DNA of 64,000 bases from Halobium salinum (lineage in GTDB: Archaea > Halobacteriota > Halobacteria > Halobacteriales > Haloferacaceae), in NCBI RefSeq assembly GCF_026586625.1, contig NZ_JAODIW010000009.1, positions 62,001 to 126,000 of the forward strand, in the 5' to 3' direction. This document shows positions 11,700-64,000 of this stretch, piece after piece. Made by a program: the position numbers and the translations under genes. Position 1 is the stretch's first letter. Every line of letters begins with the position of its first letter. Below the pieces are notes generated by a model. It saw only the letters and a list, made by a program, of their open reading frames with translations. It had not been told where the DNA came from and ran no database searches.

Positions 11700-12494
11700 T
11701 CAGATGGCCGTCCAGCCGCCGTCGACGTAGAACAGCTCCCCCGTCACGTAGCCGGCGTCCTCGCTCGCGAGGAAGAGCGTGGGACCGGCGCAGTCCTCGG
11801 GGAACCCGGCGCGCCCGAGCGGGACGGGTTTGATGAACCCCTCGCCGCCCTCGCCGGCCATCCGCTGGGCTTCCTCGGACCACCCCTCCTCGAACTCCGT
11901 GGCGATCTGGCCGGGGGCGACGGCGTTCACCCGGACCCCGTACTCGGCGAGTTCGAGGGCGGCGCCCCGGGTGAGCATCTTGATGGCGCCCTTCGTCGCG
12001 TCGTACTGCACCTGGTCGTGCTGGGCGTCCTCCGAGGAGATGGAGGCGACGTTGACGACGTTCCCCTCGACGCCGCGCTCGATCATGTCGTTCGCGGCGA
12101 CCTGCGTGCCGAAGAACATCCCCCGGACGTTGACGCCGTAGAGCTTGTCGAGGGCGTCGGGCGACACCGTCCGGAAATCCTCGGGGTGCTGGACGGCGGC
12201 GTTGTTCACGAGCACGTCGACGCCGCCGTACTCCCGCGCTTCGGTCATCAGGTTCTCGATGTCGTTGTAGTTCGAGAGGTCCGTCTCGACGTAGGCGGCG
12301 TCGCCGCCGGCCTCCTCGATTAGCTCGTGGGTGGTCAGCTCGGCGTCCTCGGCCTTCGGGTCCTCGCTGTGGTCGGCGACGAGGACGGTCGCGCCCGCCT
12401 CGCCGAACCGCGTGGCGATGGCGCGTCCGATGCCGCTCGACGCGCCCGTCACGATGACCGTGTCGCCGTCGAAGTCGAACCTTGTTGAACCCAT
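11700..12494 (-). CDS. Short-chain dehydrogenase/reductase (SDR)
   Basis: A classical SDR of 264 residues with the cofactor motif TGASSGIG near the N-terminus, NNAA, and the catalytic Ser-Tyr-Lys set in NVASISSEDAQ and YDATK. Length and C-terminal YVTGELFYVDGGW fit 3-oxoacyl reductase or sugar dehydrogenase types. The ATG at 12494 is preferred because upstream residues are basic and outside the family. No metabolic partner lies next to it, so the substrate cannot be named. Confidence 0.85.
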   Translation of the reverse strand: MGSTRFDFDGDTVIVTGASSGIGRAIATRFGEAGATVLVADHSEDPKAEDAELTTHELIEEAGGDAAYVETDLSNYNDIENLMTEAREYGGVDVLVNNAAVQHPEDFRTVSPDALDKLYGVNVRGMFFGTQVAANDMIERGVEGNVVNVASISSEDAQHDQVQYDATKGAIKMLTRGAALELAEYGVRVNAVAPGQIATEFEEGWSEEAQRMAGEGGEGFIKPVPLGRAGFPEDCAGPTLFLASEDAGYVTGELFYVDGGWTAI

Positions 12495-13029
12495 CTCGCC
12501 TCGGAGTGCACCCGTGAGCGGGTTACGCCTGACGGCCACCGACGACCGTCGACGGGAGCGTGCCGACGTCGGCGGCCGACACGATTAAATAGTGTGCCGT
12601 GGTAACATGTGTCGAGTCTCGGGTCGAGAGGCTCCGGCGTGAACCAGCGCCGATTTCCCGGGTGACGAACCGCGAGCGCACCACGAAGCCCCCATGCCTG
12701 CAGGCTTCGGACCGACGATGCAGCCCTTTTCGTCGGGGGCTTTTTGACGAACCCCTCACCGAGTCACAGCGAACGTCCGGAGTCACGGGTGTCTGCGGAG
12801 CTCCCCGGCCGCGATAACCACGGCAGCGTCCGGACCGTCCGTCGTATCCCCGTCCGTGCATCCGGTCCCGGGACGTCCGATACTCCGCCGTTCGTCGCAG
12901 GATACCGTCGTTCTCGTCCCCGTCCACTGCCCCCGAAACTGGTGCTCCGACGGTGACGTTTCACCCGTCGAACCGTCCTTCGGAACCGAACGCTCAGGGC
13001 ACACCCGGTGCCGAATGGTTCCGTTCGAC
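12495..13029. other. Intergenic region with structured-RNA candidate
   Basis: No protein gene is supported. It contains the hairpin group at 12684-12745 and an ATTAAAT patch near 12584-12590 that could be a promoter on either strand. Confidence 0.4.
12684..12745 (+). ncRNA. Candidate structured RNA with terminator-like end
   Basis: Two local hairpins, CGAAGCC/GGCTTCG (12684-12690 with 12703-12709) and CCGACGA/TCGTCGG (12712-12718 with 12730-12736), are followed by TTTTT at 12741-12745. A competing long-range stem, AGCCCCC/GGGGGCT (12687-12693 with 12735-12741), would exclude both and ends at the T run. Such alternative pairing is typical of attenuators or small RNAs. Nothing shows it is transcribed. 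Confidence 0.35.
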
Positions 13030-13911
13030 CTACTCCTCCCGCTCGTGCTCCCTGAGGTCCTTCGGCCGAACCACCCCCGGTCGACCCACCTCCAAGCGGT
13101 CGCCGATTCGGATCACCTCCGTCACACGCGGATACTCGTAGGACGCGAGGTCCTCGTGGAGGCTCTTGGGGTCCGCGCCCACCCCCTTCCACATGTCCCA
13201 GTGCACGGGCGCGAACCGCTCCAGTCCGAGTTGGTTCACCGCCTCCGCAATCCCCGCGCCGTCGTTGTACCACGTCGTGACCTGCGTCTCGGTCGGGTCG
13301 GCTTCGGTCTCGACGATCTTCCCCGTCGTGCCGAACGGGAGCACGCCGAGGTCGAGGTCGAACTCGTCGGCCACGTCTGCGAAGCCGTCCCACGGGCGCG
13401 TGTCGCCGCCGGCGAAGAACGTCCCGGAGTCGTGTTCGACGACGTACGTCACGGGCTCGACCGCGTCGGGGTCGTTCGCCCCGCGGACGTGGACCGTCAG
13501 GTCGCCGACCTCGAACGCGTCGCCCGGAGCGACCGTGTGCTTCCGGTCGTCGCTCACGTCCACGTCGCCGTCGTAGTCCGCGTCGGTGTACGACGCCTCG
13601 GGCGCGTAGAGGTCGGCCCCGAGGTCGTCGACCAGCGGGGCGAACGACGGCGGATGCATGTGGTCGATGTGTTCGTGGGTGACGAGAACGGCGTCGCAGT
13701 CGGTGGCGTCCGCCGGGTCCATCGGCACCGGAATCATCCGGACGATACGCGGCGGGTTCCCGTCGCCGAAGTACGGGTCGAGATACAGCGTCGCCTCCGC
13801 GGTGCGCAGGACGTACCCGTTGCAGCCGAGATACCAGACGGAGAGCCCCTCCGGTTCGCTCGCCTCTACCTCCCCGCGGACGAACCAGTCGCCCCAGGTG
13901 GCGTGTACCAT
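13030..13911 (-). CDS. UlaG-like metallo-beta-lactamase-fold hydrolase
   Basis: The product has 293 residues. The metal motif is HEHIDH (HxHxDH), and FFAGGDTRPWDG and FAPVHWDMW supply further ligands typical of UlaG-type proteins (L-ascorbate-6-phosphate lactonase group). A Zn- or Mn-dependent cytoplasmic hydrolase acting on a cyclic ester or phosphate is likely. No sugar transport genes adjoin it, so the ascorbate substrate should not be assumed. Confidence 0.85.
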   Translation of the reverse strand: MVHATWGDWFVRGEVEASEPEGLSVWYLGCNGYVLRTAEATLYLDPYFGDGNPPRIVRMIPVPMDPADATDCDAVLVTHEHIDHMHPPSFAPLVDDLGADLYAPEASYTDADYDGDVDVSDDRKHTVAPGDAFEVGDLTVHVRGANDPDAVEPVTYVVEHDSGTFFAGGDTRPWDGFADVADEFDLDLGVLPFGTTGKIVETEADPTETQVTTWYNDGAGIAEAVNQLGLERFAPVHWDMWKGVGADPKSLHEDLASYEYPRVTEVIRIGDRLEVGRPGVVRPKDLREHEREE

Positions 13912-13992
13912 GGGGGCGCTTCTCGGGGGTCGGGCAAAAAAGGACTCGCCGACGGCGATGCCGGAGAGGAGGTCGCTGTCGGTGACGCGCGG

Positions 13993-15150
13993 TCAGGCGC
14001 CGGCGTCGACCCGACCCGTCGGGATGCCGGTCCACGCCGGTGGCGTGGCGGCGCCGAACCAGTTGTCCGCCACGTCGACGACGGTCGCGTCCCGGCCGAC
14101 GGCGTCGACGACCACGGCGTCGCCCGGCCGCCCCGGCCCCACGGGAGCGACCGCGTGGGCGAACCAGTTGTGGTCGACCCGTGAGCGAGTGAGGGGGACG
14201 CCGCGGACGACCACCGCCGACACCGGGCGGCCGTCGGCGCCGTAGGTCGCACGGAAGACGTTGTGGTGGACGTCGAGGTACCGGCCGGCCTGCCGGCCGA
14301 GCGCCGGGTGGACCTCCTCGCCGCGGTGCATGTCGACGACGTGTGCGTACGTCCGCGGCCCGAAGTAGCTGTTCAACAGCTCGTACCCCGCGTCACGGGC
14401 GCCGATACAGGCGACCGCGTGCCGGTTGCCGTCGGCGTAGAGAAACTGCAACAGCGCCTCGCCGTGGCGGACGACGACCCCGTAGCCCAACCCCGAGAGC
14501 GCGTTGTCGAGGAGCTGACAGTGGTGGACGTGCGTCCCGGACACCGTCCCGTCGCGGCCGACTTCGACGCCGGCGTGGCCCCACCCGCGGAGCAGACACC
14601 GGTCGACCTCGACCCGGCTCCCGACGACCCCGGCGCCGGCCGACTCCAGACGCCAGTCGTACGCCGTCGGTCCCGACAGTGGCCCCTCGATTCGGAGTCC
14701 CGTCAGTCGGCTTCCCGCTTCGAGTCGGAGCAGCGGGCGGGGGGAACGTCGCGTGAAGAGGCGGGCGCCCGGCCGTCCGCTCCCGCGGTCGGAGGCGAGC
14801 ACACAACGACGGGGGAGGCGGAGTCCCCGCTCCGCCGTACAGTCGACCTCGCAGTCGCCGTCGACCCAGAGGGTCTCGCCCGGTCGGAGCGCCCCGAGGG
14901 CCTCGCCGAGCGACCGCCCGTCACCGGGCTGGAGAACGTCGTCCGCGTCGTCCTGGCCGACCGACCCCCCGACCGGCCACACGCGGCCCCACAGTGGGCG
15001 GACCGAACCGGGCGGTCCCTGCAGTCGGCGCCCGCTCGTCCCGCCCACCCCGCCGACCCCGGGCAGGTCGCCGGCGCTCACCACACCGCCGCTCCGGCCG
15101 CGTCCGACGAGACCGACACCGACGACGCCGAGGAACCGACGCCTGTCCAT
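13993..15150 (-). CDS. Exported right-handed beta-helix protein, copy 1
   Basis: At 385 residues, it begins with MDRRRFLGVVG, a Tat-like double-arginine signal with a short hydrophobic stretch. From about residue 120 it has short repeating turns such as GLRIEGP, GVVGSRVEVDRCLLRGWGHA, GTHVHHCQLLDNALSGLGYG and GRYLDVHHNVFRATYG, typical of parallel beta-helix (PbH1) repeats in polysaccharide lyases and surface proteins. It is a clear paralogue of the next gene upstream. The start was set at the DRRRF motif. Catalytic activity is not demonstrable from sequence. Confidence 0.78.
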   Translation of the reverse strand: MDRRRFLGVVGVGLVGRGRSGGVVSAGDLPGVGGVGGTSGRRLQGPPGSVRPLWGRVWPVGGSVGQDDADDVLQPGDGRSLGEALGALRPGETLWVDGDCEVDCTAERGLRLPRRCVLASDRGSGRPGARLFTRRSPRPLLRLEAGSRLTGLRIEGPLSGPTAYDWRLESAGAGVVGSRVEVDRCLLRGWGHAGVEVGRDGTVSGTHVHHCQLLDNALSGLGYGVVVRHGEALLQFLYADGNRHAVACIGARDAGYELLNSYFGPRTYAHVVDMHRGEEVHPALGRQAGRYLDVHHNVFRATYGADGRPVSAVVVRGVPLTRSRVDHNWFAHAVAPVGPGRPGDAVVVDAVGRDATVVDVADNWFGAATPPAWTGIPTGRVDAGA

Positions 15151-15536
15151 GCTTCTCCTCGGCGCGGAGCACGCTTCACGACGGCGTAACCCCCCCGAAG
15201 CCACCCGGTGGAAACCACCCGGAGGGAATCGGCTTTCCAGCGCGTCACCCGCCTACCGACGGGGAGCCGACGCATCGACGGCGGGACGGGTCACCCGGTC
15301 GGTCGAGGGAGGGGTTTCGGCGGGTCGACGGCGCCGACCGCCCGCACCGCGGCCGTTACCGGTCGGCGACGAGGTGAGCCGACCCACCGGGGCTACCAGC
15401 CGGTGACCACGCTACGTCGCTCTCACGGCTCCACGCGGGGGGAACCACCGTACCGAGGTTACCCGCCCCGACGAAACCGCCGTATCGAGGGGCGGCGACG
15501 ACACCACCCGTCGTACTGAGGCTAGGTTCTGAGGTA
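15151..15536. other. Gap between the beta-helix paralogues with degenerate repeats
   Basis: No gene is seen. The left part is rich in CCACCGG-like words. The right part holds three related 16-base elements about 31-32 bases apart (15443-15521). Confidence 0.4.
15443..15521. repeat. Three degenerate direct repeats, 31-32 bp apart
   Basis: Units AACCACCGTACCGAGG (15443), AACCGCCGTATCGAGG (15475) and ACCCGTCGTACTGAGG (15506) match each other at 12-14 of 16 positions. They end just past the stop codon of beta-helix copy 2. They look like the remains of a short tandem array. Confidence 0.45.
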
Positions 15537-16904
15537 TCAGGCGGGTGTGGTCAGCGCGTTGGGGGGTCTGCGGCCGCCGAAGCGGTTGCCGTCGACGGCC
15601 ACGTCCGCCGCCCGGAGGTCCGGCACGGAGAAGTAGAACGCGTCGCCCGGGGCGCCGACCCCCGTCGGCGACGCCTCGTGGGCGAACCAGTTGTCGACGA
15701 CTCGGGCACCCTCGACGGGTCGGCCGCGGACGAACACGGCCGTCTGGGGCTCGCCGGTGGTCACCCGCCGCGTCGCGCGGAAGACGTTGTGGTGAACGTC
15801 GAGGTACCGGCCGGCCTGCGAGCCGCCGCGGCGCCCCGACTCGTCGCCGCTGTGCATGTCGACGGACTGGAGCACCGTCCGCGGGCCGAACACGTTGTAC
15901 CGCGCCTCGTAGCCCGCGTCGGCGTACCCCGAGCAGGCGACCCCGTGGCGGTTGTCGTCGAGGTAGTTGTGCTGGAACAGCGCCTCGCCGTGGAACAGCG
16001 CGGCGCCGTAGCCTAGGTCGGTCATGAGGTTGTCGACGAGGTCACAGCCGTGGACGTGCGCGCCCGACACCGGCCCGTCGCGGCCGATTTCGACGCCGGC
16101 GTGGCCCCAGCCGCGCAGGACACAGCGGTCGACTTCGACGCCGTCGCCGACGACCGCGACGCCGGTCCCTTCCCGGCGCCACGAGTAGGGGCCGAAGCTC
16201 GTCCGCGGCCCCTCGACTCGGAGCCCCGTCAGTCGGCTCCCATCGTCGAGACGGAACAGCGGGGCCGGGTCGTCCTCGACGACGATACGCGCGCCCGCGC
16301 CACCCGACCCGCCAGACTCGCTCGGTTCGCCCGAGCCGTCCGACTCGCCCGGTTCGCCCGCCAGGCTCGACCCGTCCGGCTCGACCGGCCCACCCGACGC
16401 GAGGGTCACGCCGGGCGGAACGCCCAGCCCCTCGTAGCCGGTCAGGTCGAGCGTCAGGTCGGCCGGGAGACGGACCACGTCTCCCGGACGGGCGCTCCGG
16501 AGGGCGACGACGAGGTCGGTCGCGGTGTCGACGACGACGCCCTCGCCGGGGTCGCGCGGGCCGACCGGCCACGACTCGTCGGCGTCGACGAGCGACTCGG
16601 GGTCGACGACACTGCGCACGCCGACGCTCGGGAACGCGTCGAGCACGTCCGGGAGCGGGTACGCGTATCCGGGGTCTACGTCGGCTCGGTTCGCTCCACC
16701 CGACTCCGCGGTGTCGACGCGTTCGGTGTCGTCGTCGCCGGCGGCGCCGCTGTCGGCGCTCGCGCCGTCGGAGGGGCGGTCGGCTCGCGACCCGTTCGGG
16801 GCGGCGGTCGTCTCTCGGTTCGATATCTCGCCTCGCGGCGGCGACCGACCGGCACAGCCGGCGACGCCCGCACCGAGGAGGGCGAGGAGGCGGCGTCGTC
16901 GCAC
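15537..16904 (-). CDS. Exported right-handed beta-helix protein, copy 2
   Basis: From a GTG start this encodes 455 residues. VRRRRLLALLGAGVAGC gives an arginine-rich lipoprotein signal with a lipobox cysteine at residue 17. A Ser/Gly/Asp-rich tether is followed by beta-helix turns matching copy 1: GLRVEGP, RCVLRGWGHAGVEIGRDG, GRYLDVHHNVFRAT. Two further Gly/Ser/Glu-rich inserts (about 185-215) are absent from copy 1. I chose the GTG because upstream in-frame residues are basic and proline-rich with no family match. It is probably a surface-bound polysaccharide-active or adhesive protein. Confidence 0.75.
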   Translation of the reverse strand: MRRRRLLALLGAGVAGCAGRSPPRGEISNRETTAAPNGSRADRPSDGASADSGAAGDDDTERVDTAESGGANRADVDPGYAYPLPDVLDAFPSVGVRSVVDPESLVDADESWPVGPRDPGEGVVVDTATDLVVALRSARPGDVVRLPADLTLDLTGYEGLGVPPGVTLASGGPVEPDGSSLAGEPGESDGSGEPSESGGSGGAGARIVVEDDPAPLFRLDDGSRLTGLRVEGPRTSFGPYSWRREGTGVAVVGDGVEVDRCVLRGWGHAGVEIGRDGPVSGAHVHGCDLVDNLMTDLGYGAALFHGEALFQHNYLDDNRHGVACSGYADAGYEARYNVFGPRTVLQSVDMHSGDESGRRGGSQAGRYLDVHHNVFRATRRVTTGEPQTAVFVRGRPVEGARVVDNWFAHEASPTGVGAPGDAFYFSVPDLRAADVAVDGNRFGGRRPPNALTTPA

Positions 16905-53827: not shown

Positions 53828-55507
53828 ATGCGGCGGGATAGCAATCGGTCCGACAGCGACGACAGCGACAGCCACGGCGGGTTCGCTCGCCGGCAGTTCC
53901 TCGCGACGGCGTCGGCGGGCACCCTCGGACTGGGGCTCGCCGGCTGCCTCGCGGGCGACGACACCGGGAGTTCCGGTAACGGGAGCGGTGGGACGGGCAC
54001 CGACTCCGGCTCCGGCACGGGCAACGAGAGCGCCTCGGGGTCGGGGGCCGGCGGCGCCAAGTCCGGCGGGACGCTCCAGTGGGGCGGCGCCGTGCCGGTG
54101 CAGGGGCTCGACCCGCATCTCGACACCGCCGCGGCCTCGAAGCGGGTGCTCGAGAACATCGTCGAGGGGCTCGTCCGGCTCCAGCCGGACTACACGTTCG
54201 AACCGCTCCTCGCGAAGGAGATGACCACCTCCGAGGACAACACGAAGCTCTCCTTCACGCTCCACGAAGGGGTCACGTTCCACAACGGCGAGGAGATGAC
54301 CTCGGCGGACGTGAAGGCCTCCTTCGAGCGAGTCCAGGGCAACGAGAAGTTCGTCGCCAACGGGTTCATGCAGAAGGTCGACTCGATGTCGGCGCCGAGC
54401 GACTACGAGTTCTCGGTGACACTGACCGAACCGTTCGCCCCCTTCATCGCCAAGATGTCGACGGCCGAACTCGCGGTGTTGCCGGCGGCCGAGGCGGAGA
54501 AGAGCGAAATCAAGGAGCCCATCGGCACCGGCCCCTACCAGTTCGACAGCCGGGAGATCGAATCCTCGTTCACGATGACGAAGTTCGAGGACTACTGGGG
54601 GGCCGACTCGGTCGAGGGGCCGTACATCGACAAGATCGTCAAGTCCGAGATTACGGACCCGAGCGTCCGCCTCCAGTCGTTCATGGCGGGCGAGTACGAC
54701 TTCATCAACGGCATCCCTCCGAAGGACGTCCAGCGGGTGCAACAGGACGGGTCGGTGCGCTTCGAGAAGAACTTCCCCAAGTCGCTCGTCTACCTCGGGC
54801 TCAACTGCGAGGAGGAGCCGTTCAGCGACAAGAACGCCCGCCTCGCGCTCGACTACGCCTTCGACAAGGCCGAGGTGGCCGAGGCGGCGCTGTACGGCAC
54901 TGGCCAGGCGACGGCGAGCCCGGCGACCCCCGGGAGCCCGTGGGTGAACGAGGACGTCCAGCCCCGGCCCCGCGACCTCGACAAAGCCCAGGAGCACCTC
55001 GAGAAGGCGGGGATGCCGGACGGGTTCTCCGTCTCCTTCAAGATTCCGCAGTCCTACCCCGCGCAGGTGCAGGCCGCACAGGTCATCGCCGACCAGGCGA
55101 GCGAGGCGGGTATCGAACTCAACATCCAGAAGATAACGTGGAGTTCGTGGCTCAGCGACGTGTACTCGAAGCAGAACTTCGAGGCGACGACCTCGTCGTA
55201 CCTCGCGCTGTACTACCCCGACGTGTCGTTCTACAAGTTCCTCCACCCGGACGGGGCGTTCTTCTTCACCGGCTGGACGAACGAAGAGTACAACGCGAAG
55301 GTCGAGGAGGCGCGTCACCTGTACGACGAGTCGAAGCGGGCTGAGCTGTACAAGGAGGCGACGCAGATCATGCACGACGAGCGCGCCGGCCACCTGCTGC
55401 TGTTCTGGCAGGCGAACCTCTACGGGGCACAGCCCGACTACAAGGGGAAGATCGGCACCCCCGACGGGTCGTCGCTGCGCTTCAACGACAACTGGCTCGA
55501 CCGCTAG
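53828..55507 (+). CDS. Peptide/nickel-type ABC transporter substrate-binding lipoprotein
   Basis: The product has 559 residues. FARRQFLATASAGTLGLGLA is a Tat signal with lipobox LAGC; a Ser/Gly tether follows. The SBP family 5 fold is clear: GGTLQWGGAVPVQGLDPHLD, PLLAKEMTTSEDNTKLSFTL, FHNGEEMTSADVKASFERV, PIGTGPYQF and LALDYAFDKAEVAEAALYG. It should capture peptides or related amides outside the cell for the permeases that follow three bases later. Confidence 0.92.
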   Translation: MRRDSNRSDSDDSDSHGGFARRQFLATASAGTLGLGLAGCLAGDDTGSSGNGSGGTGTDSGSGTGNESASGSGAGGAKSGGTLQWGGAVPVQGLDPHLDTAAASKRVLENIVEGLVRLQPDYTFEPLLAKEMTTSEDNTKLSFTLHEGVTFHNGEEMTSADVKASFERVQGNEKFVANGFMQKVDSMSAPSDYEFSVTLTEPFAPFIAKMSTAELAVLPAAEAEKSEIKEPIGTGPYQFDSREIESSFTMTKFEDYWGADSVEGPYIDKIVKSEITDPSVRLQSFMAGEYDFINGIPPKDVQRVQQDGSVRFEKNFPKSLVYLGLNCEEEPFSDKNARLALDYAFDKAEVAEAALYGTGQATASPATPGSPWVNEDVQPRPRDLDKAQEHLEKAGMPDGFSVSFKIPQSYPAQVQAAQVIADQASEAGIELNIQKITWSSWLSDVYSKQNFEATTSSYLALYYPDVSFYKFLHPDGAFFFTGWTNEEYNAKVEEARHLYDESKRAELYKEATQIMHDERAGHLLLFWQANLYGAQPDYKGKIGTPDGSSLRFNDNWLDR

Positions 55508-55509
55508 CG

Positions 55510-56478
55510 ATGTCGATGCTCAGCTATCTCGTCCGGCGGGTGGGGTTCCTCGCGGTCACCCTGCTGTTCGTGACGCTCATCACGTTCGTCGTCACGAACG
55601 TCCTGCCGGGCGACGTTGCGGTGCTCATCCTCGGGCCGAACGCCAGCGAGGCGAGTCTGCAGGCGTTGCGGGCGGACCTCGGGCTGAACCAGCCGCTGTG
55701 GGTGCAGTACCTCGACTGGCTGTGGGCGCTGTTCCAACTCGACATGGGGCAGTCGCTGCGCTTCGGCGAACCCGTCTGGGGGCTCATCATGGACAAGCTC
55801 CCGCGCTCGCTGCTGCTCGCGGTCGCGGCCACGGCGTTCGCCGTCGTGCTCTCCCTGCCGCTGGGCGTCATCGCCGCGGTGAAGCAGAACGAACCCGCCG
55901 ACGTGGCCGCCTCGATGTTCGGCTTCGTCGGCGTCTCCATCCCCATCTTCCTCTGGGGGCTGGTGTTCATCCTCGTCTTCGCCGTCTGGTTGAACCTGTT
56001 CCCGACCGGCGGGTTCGTCGCACCGAGCCAGGCCGAGAACGGCTGGATGACCACCATTCGACACCTCGTGTTGCCCGCCACGTCGATGGGGTTCGCCCTG
56101 ACGGCGTACGTGATGCGGATGACCCGGTCGTCGATGCTCGAAGAACTGGGCGACGAGTACGTCAAACTCGCCCGGGCGAAGGGGATGAGCGAGCGCGTCG
56201 TCGTCATCCGTCACGCCTTCCGTAACGCCGTCATCCCGGTCATCACGGTCATCGCCTTCCAGTTCGCGTACGCCTTCGGCGGCATCGTCGTCCTCGAACA
56301 GGTGTTCTTCTGGCCGGGGATGGGGAAGCTCACGCTCACCGCCATCCAGTCGCGGGACATCCCGCTGCTGCAGGGGTGTATCATCGTCGTCGCCATGATG
56401 TACATGCTGTCGAACCTCGCGGCCGACGTCCTGTACGCCTACTTCGACCCGCGCATCCGCTACGGGGGTGAGAACTGA
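55510..56478 (+). CDS. ABC transporter permease, DppB type
   Basis: The 322-residue product has about six membrane helices, beginning with YLVRRVGFLAVTLLFVTLIT and FVVTNVLPGDVAV. The coupling (EAA) loop is DEYVKLARAKGMSERVVVIR HA-like, followed by AVIPVITVIAFQFAYAFGGI and VVLEQVFFWPGMGK, features of DppB/OppB permeases. Its stop codon overlaps the next start by one base. It pairs with the DppC-type gene to form the pore. Confidence 0.92.
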   Translation: MSMLSYLVRRVGFLAVTLLFVTLITFVVTNVLPGDVAVLILGPNASEASLQALRADLGLNQPLWVQYLDWLWALFQLDMGQSLRFGEPVWGLIMDKLPRSLLLAVAATAFAVVLSLPLGVIAAVKQNEPADVAASMFGFVGVSIPIFLWGLVFILVFAVWLNLFPTGGFVAPSQAENGWMTTIRHLVLPATSMGFALTAYVMRMTRSSMLEELGDEYVKLARAKGMSERVVVIRHAFRNAVIPVITVIAFQFAYAFGGIVVLEQVFFWPGMGKLTLTAIQSRDIPLLQGCIIVVAMMYMLSNLAADVLYAYFDPRIRYGGEN

Positions 56479-57392
56479 TGGCGACCGACGCGGGAACCGA
56501 AACGAAGCGGGCGGACTCCTCGTTCCGCATCACGACGGCCCAGAAGGAGCGCTACGCCCGCCTCTGGCGCCAGTTCCGACACAACACGAAGGCGATGGTC
56601 GGGCTGGCCATCGTGCTGACGCTCGTCGTCGTCGCGCTGTTCGCGCCGCTCATCGCGCCGTACTCGGTGTCGGAGACGAACATCGACGCCCGTTCGGAGG
56701 CGCCCTCGCTCCAACACCCCTTCGGCACCGACGAACTCGGGCGCGACATCTTCAGCCGCGTCGTGCTCGGCAGCCGTATCTCGCTGTACGTCGGCTTCGG
56801 CTCCATCGTCGGCGCGCTCGCCGTCGGGACGACCGTCGGCGTCGTCTCCGGGTACGCCGGCGGGATGGTCGACGAGGTGTTGATGCGCGTGATGGACGCC
56901 GCGATGGCGTTCCCACCCATCCTCCTCGCGCTGACCGTCATGGTCGTCCTCGGGCCGAATCTCAACAACGTCATCCTCGCGCTGGCGTTCGTCTACACGC
57001 CGTACATCGCCCGCGTCGGGCGGTCGGCGGCGCTCTCCGAACGCAACGAGGAGTACGTCGAGTCGGCCGTCTCCCGCGGGGAGTCGGACGGCTACATCGT
57101 GTTCAAGGAGGTGCTGCCCAACTGTATGGCGCCCCTCCTGGTGCAGGCGTCCATCAACGTCGCCTTCGCGATGCTCGCGGAGGCGTCGCTGTCGTTCCTC
57201 GGTCTCGGCGCGCAACCCCCCAAGCCGTCGTGGGGGCTGATGATCAACTCCGGCCGGGGGTTCATGCAGACCGCACCGTGGATGATTATCTTCCCCGGGC
57301 TGGCCATCGCCTTCGCCGTCATCGGCTTCAACATGCTCGGCGACGGCCTGCGCGACGTGCTCGACCCGAAGGTCGACACGGTGGAGAGCTAA
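56478..57392 (+). CDS. ABC transporter permease, DppC type
   Basis: A 304-residue permease with a cytoplasmic N-terminal region, a first helix (MVGLAIVLTLVVVALFAPLI), the DppC-type segment HPFGTDELGRDIFSRVVLGS and the coupling loop near EYVESAVSRGESDGYIVFK. SWGLMINSGRGFM and LGDGLRDVLDP near the end are typical. It joins the DppB-type protein to form the channel; one base separates it from the ATPase gene. Confidence 0.92.
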   Translation: MATDAGTETKRADSSFRITTAQKERYARLWRQFRHNTKAMVGLAIVLTLVVVALFAPLIAPYSVSETNIDARSEAPSLQHPFGTDELGRDIFSRVVLGSRISLYVGFGSIVGALAVGTTVGVVSGYAGGMVDEVLMRVMDAAMAFPPILLALTVMVVLGPNLNNVILALAFVYTPYIARVGRSAALSERNEEYVESAVSRGESDGYIVFKEVLPNCMAPLLVQASINVAFAMLAEASLSFLGLGAQPPKPSWGLMINSGRGFMQTAPWMIIFPGLAIAFAVIGFNMLGDGLRDVLDPKVDTVES

Positions 57393-57393
57393 C

Positions 57394-59562
57394 ATGAGCC
57401 GGACACAGTCCACCGCGACCGACGTGGCATCGACCGCCGACACCGACACCCCACTGCTCGACGTGCGCGACCTGCGCACGCAGTTCAGCACGGACGCCGA
57501 CCCCGTCGTCGCCGTCAACGACGTGTCGTTCACCCTCTCGCGGGGGGAGACGATGGGCATCGTCGGCGAGTCCGGCGCCGGCAAGTCCGTCACCGCCCGC
57601 TCCGTCATGGGGCTCATCGACCACCCCGGCGAAATCGTCGGCGGGGAGATTCTGTTCGACGGCGAGGACCTCGCTGCGAAGTCCGAAAAGGAGATGCAGA
57701 CGGTACGGGGGAATCGCATCGCGCTCGTCCCGCAGGACCCGATGCGCTCGCTCAACCCCGTTCTCACGGTCGGAAGTCAGATAGTCGAGACGGTCGAGCG
57801 CCACCAGAACGTGAGCGAGACGGAGGCCAAGGAGATCGCAATCGACGCGATGGCCGAGACCGGCATCCCCGACGCCGCCGACCGCTTCTCGGACTACCCC
57901 CACGAGTTCTCCGGCGGGATGCGCCAGCGCGTGCTCATCGCCATCGGCCTCGCCTGCGAACCCGACCTCATCATCGCCGACGAGCCGACGACGGCGCTCG
58001 ACGTGACGACGCAGGCGAAGATTCTCGACCTCCTCAACGAGCTGCAGGAGGAGCGCGGGATGGGTATCCTGATGATCACCCACAACCTCGGCGTGGTCGC
58101 CCAGACCTGCGACACCGTCGGCGTGATGTACGCCGGCAACCTCGTCGAGAAGGCCGAACTGGAGGCGCTGTTTGAACGCCCGACTCACCCCTACACCCGC
58201 GGGCTCATCGACTCCATCCCGGAGACCGACCGCGAGTACGACGAACTCCCGACGCTCGACGGGGCGATGCCGGACCTCACCGAACTCCCCACGGGCTGTA
58301 ACTTCGCCCCGCGCTGTCCGTACGCCGAGGAGGCGTGTCGGACGGCGGGCGACCCCGAACTCCGGGGGGTCGAGGGGACGCCGTCGGCGGCGGCCTGCAT
58401 CCGCGCCGACGAGTTGGACCTCTCCGAGGGTCGCGTGCCGGACGCCGCCGGCCTCGGCAAGTCGGTCGACCGCTCCGGCGACCCGCTCCTCCGCGTGGAG
58501 GGGCTGAAGAAGCACTTCTCGGCCGGCGACGGCGTGCTGGGTGGTCTCACGCTCGACCGCTCCGGCGGCGGGTTCCCGAAACTGAAACGCCAGTCGGTGA
58601 AGGCCGTCGACGGGGTCGACTTCGACATCTACCCCGGCGAGACCGTCGGGCTGGTCGGCGAGTCCGGTTGTGGGAAGTCCACCGTCGCCCGCACGGTGCT
58701 CCAGCTACTGGAGCCGACGGACGGCGGGGTGTACTTCGACGACCAGCCGCTCCACGAGTTGGGAAGCAGCGAGATTCGGAGCCTCCGGGCGGAGATGCAG
58801 ATGATTTTCCAGGACCCGGGCTCCTCACTGAATCCGAGAAAGACCGTCGGCGGCATCATCGGCCGCGCGATGGAGAAACACGGCGTGGCCTCGGGTGAGG
58901 AGAAACACGAGCGTGTCGGCGAACTCCTCGAACGGGTCGGCCTCTCGGCGGGCGCCGCCGGGAAGTACCCCCACGAGTTCTCCGGGGGCCAGCAGCAGCG
59001 CGTCGCCATCGCCCACGCCCTCGCGGTCGAGCCCCGGCTCATCGTCTGTGACGAGCCGGTGTCCGCGCTCGACGTCTCCGTGCAGGCCCAGATTCTCAAC
59101 CTCCTCAACGAGATTCAGGCCGAGGAGGGTATCGCCTACCTGTTCATCTCGCACAACATCGGCGTCGTCAAGCACATCTGCGACCGTCTCGCGGTGATGT
59201 ATCTCGGCGAGGTCGCCGAGTTCGGCACCGTCGAGGACGTGTTCGACGCGCCGTACCACCCCTACACGCAAGCGCTCCTCTCTGCGGTGCCCCACGCGGA
59301 CCCGACCCGGCGCACCAACCGGGTCTTGCTCGAGGGGACCGTTCCGAGCCCCATCGACCCGCCCTCGGGCTGTTCGTTCCGCACGCGCTGTCCGAAGAAG
59401 ATCGGCGACGTCTGCGAGCGCGAGGACCCCGAACTGGCGGACGCGGGCGACGGCCACCACATCGCCTGCCACCTCTCGCGCGAGGAGATGTCCGAACCGG
59501 TCGGCGAGGGCCACGCAGGCGACGCCCGGAGCGTCGAGTCGGGCGCACGCTCGGACGACTGA
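57394..59562 (+). CDS. Fused DppD-DppF ATPase of the peptide ABC importer
   Basis: The 722-residue protein joins two complete ABC ATPases. Unit 1: Walker A GESGAGKS, signature SGGMRQRV, Walker [13 protein letters not shown]. Unit 2: Walker A GESGCGKS, signature SGGQQQRV, Walker [13 protein letters not shown]. Each ends with the oligopeptide-transporter C-terminal cysteine region ([15 protein letters not shown] and [16 protein letters not shown]). In bacteria these are two genes; the fusion ensures a 1:1 ratio. The long joint between the units (about 330-380) includes [17 protein letters not shown]. Confidence 0.93.
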
Positions 59563-59859: not shown

Positions 59860-61227
59860 ATGGCAGACGACAACCTCAACATCTCGCGGCGGTCGGTGCT
59901 CGCAGGCCTCGGAACCATCGGTATCGCAAGCGCGGGTGCCGGCCTGGGCACGTCCGCGTACTTCAACGACACGGAAGAGTTCGACGGGAACACGCTGACG
60001 GCTGGGGAGCTCGACCTCCTCGTCGGATACAAGGCGTACTACTTCGGCGCGAAGAACGGCAGGGGGTCGCGCCACGAGTTCGCCAAGGTCAAGAACGGCG
60101 ACGAAGGCGACCTTTCGGCGAACCTCTCGGACATCAAGCCAGGCGACGCGCTCGCGGCGGAGTTCTGCTTCAAAATCCGGAACAACCCGGCGTACCTCTG
60201 GATGTGCGGCGAACTGACCGCGGACGACGAGAACGGCCGGAACGAACCGGAGAAGCACGTCGACGACTCCGCACACGACGGCGAACTCGCCGAGCGGATG
60301 ATGGCGCGCGTGGCCTACACGAAGGGTCACGGCACGGACGGGTACCAGGGCCCCCACAGTGTCGGCGACGTCTCGTACTACCACGACTCCGTGGACGACA
60401 GCCTGCTGGTGGAGGGGACCCTCCGCGAGGTTCTGGACGCGCTCCGCATGGGCATCCCGCTCGACGGCGACGGCGACGTCACCCCGCCGAAGAAGAACCG
60501 CAACTGCTTCGACAAGGCGGGCGACGGCGACGAGTACGCGGACGCCCACGTCGTGGTGGAGACCTGGCTCCCCGCGTCGGTCGGTAACGAGGTCCAGTCC
60601 GATTCCGTGGAGTTCGACCTGAAGTTCTACGCCGAGCAGTGTCGCCACAACGACGGCGCCGACAACCCGTGCGTGAACGTCACGACGAAGCGCGGTCGCG
60701 GGTGGCCGTTCACGACCGACAAGTGGTCGCCGCAGGCCATCGCCGGCAGCCGCGGTGCGACCGAACTCCGCTTCGAGAGCCCGGACGGCCTCGAGACGCA
60801 GGACCTGAACACGAACTACGGCTACGCGAGCCCCTCGGAGTGGTTCTACAACACGGGCTACGACTTCGAGCTGACCTTCGACGGCGACGACGAGGCGACC
60901 ATGACGGTGTACCACGACGACGGCTCGACGTCCATCACTAACACGGTACCCGGCGCGGGCGACAAGCTCGGTCTGGTCGCCAAGTCCAGCGACGACTTCG
61001 ACTTCGAGATTCGCGAGGTGACCGTCGACGACGGCATCGACAGCGGCCCGACGAGCGTCATGGCCCCCGCGGAGAACGGCGACGACAAGAAGCACCTCCT
61101 CGTCGAGGGCGCGACGCTCGGCGACGGGTTCACCGTCACCGGGACGTTCGAGTTCGTCAACGACTCGAAGAGCGGCCGAGTCGAGCAGGTCGGCAACTAC
61201 GGGATGAACATCCTCGTCAAGTACTGA
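59860..61227 (+). CDS. TasA-like secreted protein with SipW-type signal peptide
   Basis: The product has 455 residues. The N-terminus ISRRSVLAGLGTIGIASAGA, then TSAYFNDTEEFDGNTLTAGE, is the hallmark of SipW-dependent (TasA/camelysin-like) signal peptides, with cleavage expected near the FND motif. The first half shares FCFKIRNNPAYL and FYAEQCRHNDG with the second cluster protein. The second half is an added beta-rich domain (WPFTTDKWSP, ATMTVYHDDGSTSITNTVPG). A dedicated signal peptidase gene follows two genes later. It likely forms or decorates a surface fibre (inference). Confidence 0.8.
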   Translation: MADDNLNISRRSVLAGLGTIGIASAGAGLGTSAYFNDTEEFDGNTLTAGELDLLVGYKAYYFGAKNGRGSRHEFAKVKNGDEGDLSANLSDIKPGDALAAEFCFKIRNNPAYLWMCGELTADDENGRNEPEKHVDDSAHDGELAERMMARVAYTKGHGTDGYQGPHSVGDVSYYHDSVDDSLLVEGTLREVLDALRMGIPLDGDGDVTPPKKNRNCFDKAGDGDEYADAHVVVETWLPASVGNEVQSDSVEFDLKFYAEQCRHNDGADNPCVNVTTKRGRGWPFTTDKWSPQAIAGSRGATELRFESPDGLETQDLNTNYGYASPSEWFYNTGYDFELTFDGDDEATMTVYHDDGSTSITNTVPGAGDKLGLVAKSSDDFDFEIREVTVDDGIDSGPTSVMAPAENGDDKKHLLVEGATLGDGFTVTGTFEFVNDSKSGRVEQVGNYGMNILVKY

Positions 61228-61452
61228 AGACGCTTCGGCGAGGTTCCTTCCCGGACCCACACCGGTGCCACGACCGTCGCTGTTCGCGACGGACGTAGAC
61301 GCGGTCGCCATCGCGTCTCGGCGGTTCGACTCCGCCGGTGGGTTTCATCCGAGGGCGGCGGCACTCGGAACGGACATACACACGATTCACATGATACACA
61401 CGCACGACACAGGCGGGGACGGGGGAGCGACTCTCGGCGGGGGTGAGTCACG

Positions 61453-62649
61453 GTGAGCGGCGACGACATCTCCCGGCGCCGCCTCCTGCTCGGTCTCGGC
61501 AGCGCCGGCGCAGTCGGGTTCGCCAGCGGAACCGGGACGCGTGCGGCGCTGTTCGACCGCGAGACGGTCGCCGACAACCGGCTCCGTGCCGGCAACGTCG
61601 ACCTCGAACTCGCCACGACGTGGCTCCGCCGCCGCCCCGACGAGGAGTGGACGGCATGGGACGACCGAACGGAGAGCTGGACGCCGTACGACGGCTCCGG
61701 GTTCGACGGCGTCAGCTACGCCACCGAGTCGCGCGTCCGGCCCGTCGTCGACGAGGTTCGCGAGGGCCACGAGGGGTACGTCTGGACGGCGTTTCGCGTC
61801 TGTGACAACCCGGCCACCGTCGAGGTTCGACTGGACGGGACTGCGGACGGCGACGACGACGGCGAGGACCTGGTCGACCGCGTCGAGGGGACGCTGTACT
61901 ACGCGGACTCGCTCGACGCGTTGACGGACCCGACGGGTGCGACGACGCTCGCAACCGGGTCGTTGCGTGACCTGCTCGGCGGGTCGTACCACCTCGGGCC
62001 GGGGGCAACGGGCGGTACGACCGGCGGCACGACCGACGACCCGATTGCGCTCGGGAAACTCGAGTTCGACGAGAACGAGGGCGGCGTCCTCGACATCTCG
62101 CTCGAAGGGACGAGCCAGTCGTGGAGCGGCACCTACGACGCCGGCGTCGAAGAGTTCGCTCCGGCCGACCCGCCGACCTTCGAGTTCGACGGGCCTGACG
62201 GGGCCGTGACGGTCGAACTGACGCGGTTCTACGTGAAGGACGCCGACGGCGACGACCGCGAGGTGTACGCCTTCGACTTTGAGACGACCGCCGGGTCGGT
62301 GTGTCGAGTCGAGGTGAAGGGCGGTACGGGGACGAACGTCTCTGGGACGGACGAACTCGGTCCGAACGGGGGGACGGCGCTCCGACCGCCGGAGAACAAC
62401 GGCGGCAAGCAGGCGGCCATCAGCAACGTCGTCTTCTCCACCTGTCCGGGTTCGGGGGACGACCCGGAGCCGCCGGGCTGTCTGCCGGCCTGCGAGCCGG
62501 CGTACCTCGGGCTGGCGTGGACGTTCCCCGATGAAGGGGGACCGGACGACGGCTGGCTCGGCGACCGCGTCGACTTCACGCTGACGTTCGACGCCGTCCA
62601 GTGTCGCCACCACGACGGGGCGGGCGGCGAGGGAGGTCGGTCGGCGTGA
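61453..62649 (+). CDS. Second TasA-like secreted protein with SipW-type signal
   Basis: From a GTG start with a GGGGGTGAG stretch just upstream this encodes 398 residues. DISRRRLLLGLGSAGAVGFA and TRAALFDRETVADNRLRAGN correspond to the SipW-type signal and first strand of the previous protein; FRVCDNPATVEVRL and FDAVQCRHHDGAGG also match it. An inserted region in the middle (about 210-335) has its own beta pattern and cysteines (SVCRVEV, FSTCPG, LPACEPAYLG). It overlaps the peptidase gene by four bases (GTGA). Confidence 0.78.
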   Translation: MSGDDISRRRLLLGLGSAGAVGFASGTGTRAALFDRETVADNRLRAGNVDLELATTWLRRRPDEEWTAWDDRTESWTPYDGSGFDGVSYATESRVRPVVDEVREGHEGYVWTAFRVCDNPATVEVRLDGTADGDDDGEDLVDRVEGTLYYADSLDALTDPTGATTLATGSLRDLLGGSYHLGPGATGGTTGGTTDDPIALGKLEFDENEGGVLDISLEGTSQSWSGTYDAGVEEFAPADPPTFEFDGPDGAVTVELTRFYVKDADGDDREVYAFDFETTAGSVCRVEVKGGTGTNVSGTDELGPNGGTALRPPENNGGKQAAISNVVFSTCPGSGDDPEPPGCLPACEPAYLGLAWTFPDEGGPDDGWLGDRVDFTLTFDAVQCRHHDGAGGEGGRSA

Positions 62650-63569
62650 ACCGACCGGGGCTACCGGTGCCCGAGCGAACCACGCACGCTCTCGCGCTCC
62701 TCCTCGTCGTCGGACTCGTCGCCCCGTTCGTCGTCTTCGCGGCGCCGGGGCTCGTCGGCGCACAGCACAGCTTCGTCGTGCTCTCGGGGAGCATGGAGCC
62801 GGCCATCGACACCGGCGACGCGGTGCTCGTCGAGCGGGTCGACCCGACCGCCGTCGAGGCGGGCGACGTCGTCACGTTCCGCGACGGCGGCGCGTCGACG
62901 CCGGTCACCCACCGGGTCGTCGAGGTCCGCGAGGGTGAGTTCGGCCGCCAGTTCGTCACCAAGGGCGACGCGAACGAGGACTCCGACCCCGGCGTCGTCA
63001 CCGAGAGTGAACTTCTCGGGCGGGTCGCGTTCACGCTTCCGCTCGTCGGCTACGTGGTCGGGTTCGGCGGGACGCCCGCCGGCGTCGTCGCACTCGTCGT
63101 CGTCCCGTTCGGGCTGTTGCTCGCGACGGAGCTCCGCAGCGTGGTCTCGGGGGCGACCCGGGGACGGCGCGAACCGGACGACGTGGACGATACGGACGGG
63201 CCGAACGGGGTGGGCGAGGCCGAACGAGCGAACGGGACGGAGGGGACGGAGGGGACGGCCAGGACGGACGAGACGATGGATACGACAGCGACACGAACGG
63301 CGGCAGGCACTGTGACGCCCGACGAACCGACGGGCGGAATCACACTCGCACCGGGGGAGCTCCGAATCGGACTCGGGGTGCTCCTCTGTGCCGGTCCGTA
63401 CACCGCGTGGGTCGCCTACGTGACGACCGCCGGCTGGGCGGTCGCCGCGGCGGTCGCCGCCAACGCCTCGCTCGCACTGGCCGCGGCGCTCTACCTGAGC
63501 GGCCGCGACGAGGCCGCCGAGTCGGGTCCGACCGACGCCCCGACGGGAGGTGTCGACGATGGCCGGTAG
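62646..63569 (+). CDS. SipW/Sec11-like signal peptidase I
   Basis: Using the GTG in the GTGA overlap, the product has 307 residues. An N-terminal helix (HALALLLVVGLVAPFVVFA) precedes the catalytic Ser49 in VLSGSMEPAIDTGD, His89 in PVTHRVVEV (archaeal/ER/SipW type, instead of lysine) and Asp108 in VTKGDANEDSDPG. A helix follows at about 137-160, then a long Thr/Gly/Asp/Asn segment and two more helices near the C-terminus. It most likely cleaves the TasA-like proteins encoded on both sides. Confidence 0.88.
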   Translation: MNRPGLPVPERTTHALALLLVVGLVAPFVVFAAPGLVGAQHSFVVLSGSMEPAIDTGDAVLVERVDPTAVEAGDVVTFRDGGASTPVTHRVVEVREGEFGRQFVTKGDANEDSDPGVVTESELLGRVAFTLPLVGYVVGFGGTPAGVVALVVVPFGLLLATELRSVVSGATRGRREPDDVDDTDGPNGVGEAERANGTEGTEGTARTDETMDTTATRTAAGTVTPDEPTGGITLAPGELRIGLGVLLCAGPYTAWVAYVTTAGWAVAAAVAANASLALAAALYLSGRDEAAESGPTDAPTGGVDDGR

Positions 63570-63993
63570 TCACCGAGCGACGTACGTGCTCGTCGCGGTG
63601 CTCGTCGCCGCCGTCGTCGTAGCGGCGCCGGCGGGAGAGGTCACGCTCGCCTCGTTCACCGACACGGAGCGCGTCGAGGGGAGCCTCGTCGCCGTCGACG
63701 GTACGGGTCAGTCGAGCCAGCCCGGTCAGTCGGAGACGGGGGTCAGCTCGGCGACCGTCGGTGGTGCGAACGGGGCCGACGACCCGGGAACGGCCACGTC
63801 GGAGGGCGCCGCGAGTGAAACGACGGCGGGCGGCGACGCGAGCGAGGCGCCGAACGGGAGTGCGAACGGAACGACGACGCCCACTCCCACGCCGGTACCG
63901 ACCGGCGACGGGGAGTCGGCCGAAACCGGAGCGAACGGGACGGCCCCGACGAACGCGTCGGCCGTCGCGGCCGTCGCGGGGTGGTCGCGATGA
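63559..63993 (+). CDS. Short secreted protein with SipW-type signal
   Basis: At 144 residues, the N-terminus HRATYVLVAVLVAAVVVAAP then VTLASFTDTERVEGSLVAVD resembles a SipW-dependent signal with the FTDTE motif in place of FND. The rest is Gly/Ala/Thr/Ser-rich with a TPTPTPVPTG tether and many NGT-type glycosylation sites. It starts eleven bases before the end of the peptidase gene and overlaps the next start by four bases, so it belongs to the operon. It may be a minor surface subunit. Confidence 0.7.
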   Translation: MAGSHRATYVLVAVLVAAVVVAAPAGEVTLASFTDTERVEGSLVAVDGTGQSSQPGQSETGVSSATVGGANGADDPGTATSEGAASETTAGGDASEAPNGSANGTTTPTPTPVPTGDGESAETGANGTAPTNASAVAAVAGWSR

Positions 63994-64000
63994 CCGGACG
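63990..64000 (+). CDS. Start of the next gene of the operon, cut by the window end
   Basis: An ATG overlaps the previous stop codon (ATGA), a coupling used elsewhere in this operon. Only three codons are visible, so the product cannot be named. Confidence 0.4.

Follow-up and report, generated by a model that had tools for sequence, protein, structure and literature searches.

Here we report the analysis of a gene cluster, P1 to P5, at the end of a 64,000-nucleotide window (G000:C14:62001-126000) of a 4.46-Mb haloarchaeal genome. The genes lie at the positions given for them in an earlier note on this DNA (Table 1), and the cluster runs past the window end, as that note had it. The continuation is one more gene, P5, which the note did not mention; its C-terminal half is matched by the family profile (E 4e-14) and its region holds the whole-genome search matches at G000:C14:126551-126856. 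The earlier description of genes joined by overlaps of 4-11 bases holds for P2/P3, P3/P4 and P4/P5 (4, 11 and 4 bp, respectively) but not for P1, which ends 225 bp before P2 and stands outside the overlapping string.

Table 1. Genes of the cluster and features of P1, in window coordinates unless stated otherwise.
Feature	Position	Strand	Description
P1	59860-61227	+	455 aa, candidate TasA-like fibre subunit; TIGR04088 match, 8aur fold match
P1 signal peptide, residues 1-33	59860-59958	+	Twin-arginine SRRSVL, hydrophobic stretch, SipW-type site before YFNDTEEF
P1 candidate donor strand, residues 34-46	59959-59997	+	Modelled without secondary structure and at low pLDDT; F35 corresponds to TasA F29
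P1 TasA-like beta-sandwich, about residues 47-280	59998-60699	+	Conserved core in alignments A1 and A2; Foldseek match to 8aur; Q260 corresponds to TasA Q232
P1 C-terminal ConA-like domain, residues 288-455	60721-61224	+	VIA-align Z 12.0 to concanavalin A
P2	61453-62649	+	398 aa, TasA-like paralogue; inserted region at about residues 200-335; twin-arginine signal
P3	62646-63569	+	307 aa, archaeal/ER-type signal peptidase I (Ser-His-Asp), putative dedicated SipW-like peptidase
P4	63559-63993	+	144 aa, short predicted exported protein with SipW-like cleavage site
P5	63990-64000 (part in the window); whole gene L002:4991-5878	+	295 aa, TasA-type paralogue

The surroundings of the cluster are described here for completeness. 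Directly upstream (window 53828-59562) lies what reads as a complete dipeptide/oligopeptide-type ABC transporter operon, consisting of a binding protein, two permeases and fused ATPases. Past the cluster there are genes for a TatA-like protein, a surface protein of the Hvo_1808 family, a protease of the Lon type and two TatC-like proteins; the Tat and Lon assignments were read off the sequences. The TatA-like gene and the two TatC-like genes (L002:6542-6877 and 12282-15541) are situated at most 10 kb downstream of a cluster whose subunits carry Tat-type signals. The Hvo_1808-family protein (L002:6999-8825, minus strand; 463 bits against a cut-off of 200) adjoins the cluster just beyond the window and contains an HExxH motif, and is possibly a surface metallopeptidase. 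A viral origin was considered and rejected, as no relative turned up when viral contigs were scanned.

Signal peptides and TasA-like folds

The earlier note had proposed three SipW-type signal peptides in the window. That of P1 scores well with the profile TIGR04088 (32.2 bits against a cut-off of 19) and that of P4 is borderline, with 14.8 bits, while P2 is missed by the profile and is counted as SipW-type only through homology, ALFDRET replacing AYFNDTE. Across the whole 4.46-Mb genome P1 and P4 are the only TIGR04088 matches with E <= 0.1, and the SipW-type signals are therefore not background. The exact cut site in P1 is probably that of TasA, whose chain in the structure 8aur begins at A28-F29, aligned with the P1 site.

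In profile searches P1 falls outside several catalogued families. The only Pfam match is to Peptidase_M73 (camelysin, PF12389), with 19.6 bits against a gathering score of 22.5 (E 8.5e-4) over residues 24-56. The TasA equivalog NF046066 (17.3 bits against 450), the choice-of-anchor W model (24.3 against 45) and the general Tat model TIGR01409 all stay under their cut-offs. By these scores P1 is TasA-like, being neither a catalogued camelysin nor TasA itself.

Searching the solved structures by sequence alone, with a profile of the P1 family, gave nothing significant, and structure prediction was therefore used. Mature P1, modelled from a 54-sequence alignment (pLDDT 77.5, pTM 0.76), finds its best solved match in 8aur, a TasA fibre structure from cryo-EM (Foldseek E 1.1e-4, prob 1.00), the sole match with E <= 1e-3, with a modest whole-chain TM-score of 0.47 by target. 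The last ~170 residues resemble concanavalin A (VIA-align Z 12.0, rmsd 2.9, 150 residues), and AbpA of the archaeal bundling pili is not among the 50 fold matches listed for P1. For the model of mature P2 (pLDDT 78.6, pTM 0.61), VIA-align ranks 8aur first of 980 chains (Z 8.6, rmsd 4.2, 159 residues) and finds no other chain with Z >= 8; the match of P2 to TasA by Foldseek is weak (E 0.1, prob 0.92). The P1 and P2 families are homologous to each other (profile comparison 99.9%, E 2.4e-37). Judged from these models, the TasA-like fold appears clear for P1 and moderate for P2. The TasA-like folds anticipated for the two long proteins were borne out, in that 8aur is top for P1 by Foldseek and for P2 by VIA-align, and the two do share Cys and NPA motifs. 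Each also carries a different extra region, located after the TasA-like domain in P1 and inside it in P2. It is plausible that P1 and P2 are the putative major and minor subunits of a fibre, as the earlier note supposed; the ConA-like domain and the Tat-type signals described below had gone unremarked there.

The relationship to TasA can also be followed in the sequences, using a TasA comparison sequence identical to 8aur over residues 28-261. A profile of the haloarchaeal core scores 15.8 bits against mature TasA, the best of 1000 shuffles reaching 8.9, and hhalign of TasA against the haloarchaeal family gives P 2.1e-5. In the profile alignment, LKPGD and NKYQGNSIKLQFSFEATQ of TasA are paired with KPGD and the NEIQ...DSV...FYAEQ segments of the family. 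TasA residues F29 and Q232 are among the most conserved of that protein and lie within the protomer interface (PMC10151520). P1 F35, equivalent to the donor-strand residue F29, is kept in 53 of the 54 aligned sequences (the remaining one has a gap), and P1 Q260, equivalent to the interface residue Q232, is kept in all 54. That F35 and Q260 are so conserved is, among the computational results, the best pointer to donor-strand assembly, short of proving polymerisation.

A twin-arginine pair stands upstream of the SipW-type site in 238 of 239 unique subunit N-termini (those in which such a site was found), and the motif [STG]R[RK]xxL in 237. Of 170 other proteins encoded at these loci that begin with a hydrophobic stretch, only 6 have a comparable motif; the subunit and control patterns are not identical, the contrast being too large to hinge on that. 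Among P4-like proteins the motif is present in 1 of 31. The natural reading is that the subunits would be exported by Tat and P4 by Sec. Haloarchaea use Tat widely, so its use for these subunits is unsurprising by itself; the literature searched gave no instance of TasA-like subunits that combine a Tat-type signal and a SipW-type site. Such signals raise the question of how donor-strand exchange could follow export in the folded state, to which the self-complemented TasA monomer (PMC9674648) offers a possible answer.

P4 is built from a Sec-type signal, a LASFTDTERVEGSL segment and a low-complexity tail. It aligns with 31 small proteins encoded directly downstream of the peptidase in other loci, and FSDEVTVQGNF-type N-termini recur in 31 loci. 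By analogy, P4 is possibly a fibre starter or anchor, that is, a putative TapA-like accessory protein.

The signal peptidase and its conserved neighbourhood

The Ser-His-Asp signal peptidase recognised in the cluster by the earlier note is well supported. P3 scores 107 bits with TIGR02228 against a cut-off of 51.85 and matches SEC11C (7p2q) with E 1.4e-14, and an alignment of 57 sequences shows no variation at its Ser49, His89 and Asp108/Asp114, bar one truncated row at the Ser. Its score with the Bacillus SipW equivalog NF046067 is 90.5 bits, under the cut-off of 190; we regard P3 as putatively SipW-like in its working, without filing it as SipW. The genome holds three TIGR02228 matches over the cut-off, P3 being the best and the other two lying elsewhere.

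A relative of P1 occurs in 102 of 170 sampled genomes of the host's family. In a neighbourhood search of 73 named haloarchaeal loci with a P1 relative, drawn from many genera, a P3-type peptidase lay within the fetched stretch in 55, on the same strand as the subunit genes and downstream of them, and in about half of these 55 the peptidase gene begins 1-8 bp before the end of the gene ahead of it. A P2-like gene precedes the peptidase in most loci, and the usual order is two or more subunits, a P5-like gene, a P2-like gene, the peptidase and a P4-like gene; in the window P5 is positioned differently, after P4. Of 60 genomes searched for P3, 32 have P1 relatives and 28 do not; strong P3 matches occur in 31 of the former and in 0 of the latter (Fisher p 2.8e-16, a value that overstates independence, as the genomes are related; 28 genera were sampled). 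The threshold for a strong match was chosen after viewing the table, in which the per-genome best hits leave a clear gap from about 1e-28 to 1e-9. The linkage of the peptidase with its presumed substrates, on which the earlier note had staked its proposal, is therefore conserved across many genera, with near-perfect co-occurrence. In the two closest relatives by P1 the peptidase does not adjoin P1; in one of them, G080, the locus is split between two contigs (L162, G080:C2, and L035, G080:C1), one with P1 and a P5-like gene and the other with the peptidase and a P2-like gene.

Two further observations concern these neighbourhoods. Members of a winged-helix-like regulator family (VLPAEQVYAILANERRR) are found in 60 of the 73 loci (L055-L127), often upstream of subunit genes, and could regulate the locus; the window contains four members, none of them adjoining the cluster. 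A related locus on a Halorubrum ezzemoulense megaplasmid (L168), with two vWA-annotated proteins in its gene row, lies near a recombinase and an IS6 transposase, and the system may be mobile.

A proposed fibre system and its relatives

We consider it likely that the cluster is a TasA-type extracellular fibre system, known here from genes and models, in which subunits are exported by Tat, trimmed by a dedicated peptidase and joined by donor-strand exchange. The computations support the fold match, the homology, the peptidase family with its catalytic residues, the conserved gene order and co-occurrence and the conserved Phe and Gln; Tat export, cleavage, polymerisation and the roles of P4 and P5 are steps that we infer. 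P1 and P2 would be made with Tat-type signal peptides bearing a SipW-type cleavage site, and would leave the cell probably folded and self-complemented, as does the TasA monomer (PMC9674648). P3 would then cut just ahead of the YFNDTE or LFDRET segment, removing the signal, and the freed flexible N-terminal strand (YFNDTEEF in P1, unstructured in the model) could insert into the beta-sandwich of the next subunit, a donor-strand exchange of the kind performed by Bacillus TasA. As decorations of the fibre, the ConA-like domain in P1 and the insert in P2 would confer binding properties, as might the choice-of-anchor W or VWA-type domains found in some paralogues at other loci. P4, with a donor-strand-like N-terminus and no sandwich domain, may start the fibre by supplying its first strand, or else anchor it, as TapA does. 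We further raise, as a tentative idea in which we have somewhat less than even confidence, that Tat-exported folded subunits become competent for exchange only once the dedicated SipW-like peptidase frees the donor strand, so that proteolysis at the membrane, and not a chaperone or Sec-coupled folding, would gate how a fibre decorated with modular lectin-like and VWA-type domains is assembled.

Other explanations of the same genes were weighed. P1 and P2 might be secreted monomeric or S-layer-associated adhesins, with a TasA-like scaffold, a glycan-binding ConA-like domain and release by the peptidase, and no fibre. The ConA-like domain of P1 and the VWA-type domains of some paralogues would suit such a function, which we nevertheless think unlikely, since the donor-strand Phe and the interface Gln are kept most strictly while the decorations vary between paralogues, and since both the several subunit types per locus and the strand-only P4 proteins accord with an assembled fibre. 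It is extremely improbable that P1 and P2 are secreted camelysin-type metalloproteases and not structural subunits. Although Peptidase_M73 is the one Pfam family that P1 touches, below its gathering score, the match is confined to the region at or just past the signal peptide, and HExxH is absent from P1, P2, P5 and all 54 aligned relatives; on the same two grounds, camelysin protease activity was itself thought unlikely. To our knowledge, the catalytic motif of camelysin is not settled.

With respect to P3, a general signal peptidase present here by chance, with no special tie to P1 and P2, might be expected to do as P3 does in exceeding the cut-off of the general archaeal family TIGR02228 comfortably while falling under that of the Bacillus SipW equivalog. 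However, the genome has its two other over-cut-off matches to that family elsewhere, and the distribution of P3-type genes over genomes with and without P1 relatives (31/32 against 0/28) leads us to reject a chance linkage of peptidase and subunits, and we consider a general peptidase at this place very unlikely. The reading that we favour remains that of a TasA-type fibre with its own peptidase.

Discussion of adhesion and biofilms in haloarchaea usually centres on type-IV pili. If our proposal is true, a further fibre system, unrelated to these pili and served by a peptidase of its own, is present in 102 of 170 sampled genomes of the family; this would change the view of haloarchaeal biofilms and add a large group of archaea to the range of TasA-type matrix fibres. 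The idea is testable, since TIGR04088 also finds a match in the genetically tractable Haloferax volcanii. Annotation pipelines assign these proteins no function: some are named "SipW-dependent-type signal peptide-containing protein", others "vWA domain-containing protein", and others again are entered as hypothetical. No TasA-like or SipW system of haloarchaea was found in the literature searched, which excluded most subscription papers and all bioRxiv preprints, and absence is unproven. TasA homologues have been reported in various archaeal branches (PMC10151520), and archaeal TasA relatives as such are therefore not new. The present analysis adds a coherent haloarchaeal locus that co-occurs with a dedicated peptidase, together with the Tat-type signals of its subunits, the domains that decorate them and the P4 class.

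The closest comparison is with the tapA-sipW-tasA operon of B. subtilis (8aur for the fibre, 5of1/5of2 for the monomer), which has in common with the haloarchaeal locus the TasA-like fold, the SipW-type signal peptide, the donor-strand Phe, the interface Gln and a linked ER-type signal peptidase. In B. subtilis tapA overlaps sipW (PMC10151520), and here the putative accessory gene P4 likewise overlaps the peptidase gene P3. In contrast, the haloarchaeal subunits have Tat-type twin-arginine signals where TasA has an MKKK-type signal, the locus contains several subunit paralogues with extra ConA-like, choice-of-anchor W or VWA-type domains, the core is only about 20% identical to TasA, and P4 is likened to TapA by its putative role. 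The sipW-calY/tasA locus (camelysins) of Bacillus cereus likewise has one peptidase and more than one TasA-like substrate (PMC10151520), whereas the haloarchaeal subunits precede the peptidase and carry extra domains and twin-arginine signals. Among archaea, the threads of Sulfolobus acidocaldarius (Saci_0406) are also donor-strand fibres, with a subunit that signal peptidase I processes; they differ in a predicted use of Sec, a YYY motif and a proposed isopeptide Asp, and SipW is not mentioned in that report (PMC9715654). The bundling pili of Pyrobaculum, as described in papers citing that work (PMC9674648, PMC9715654), are a solved, TasA-related archaeal donor-strand fibre, likened here by that description, from a hyperthermophilic and distantly related archaeon.
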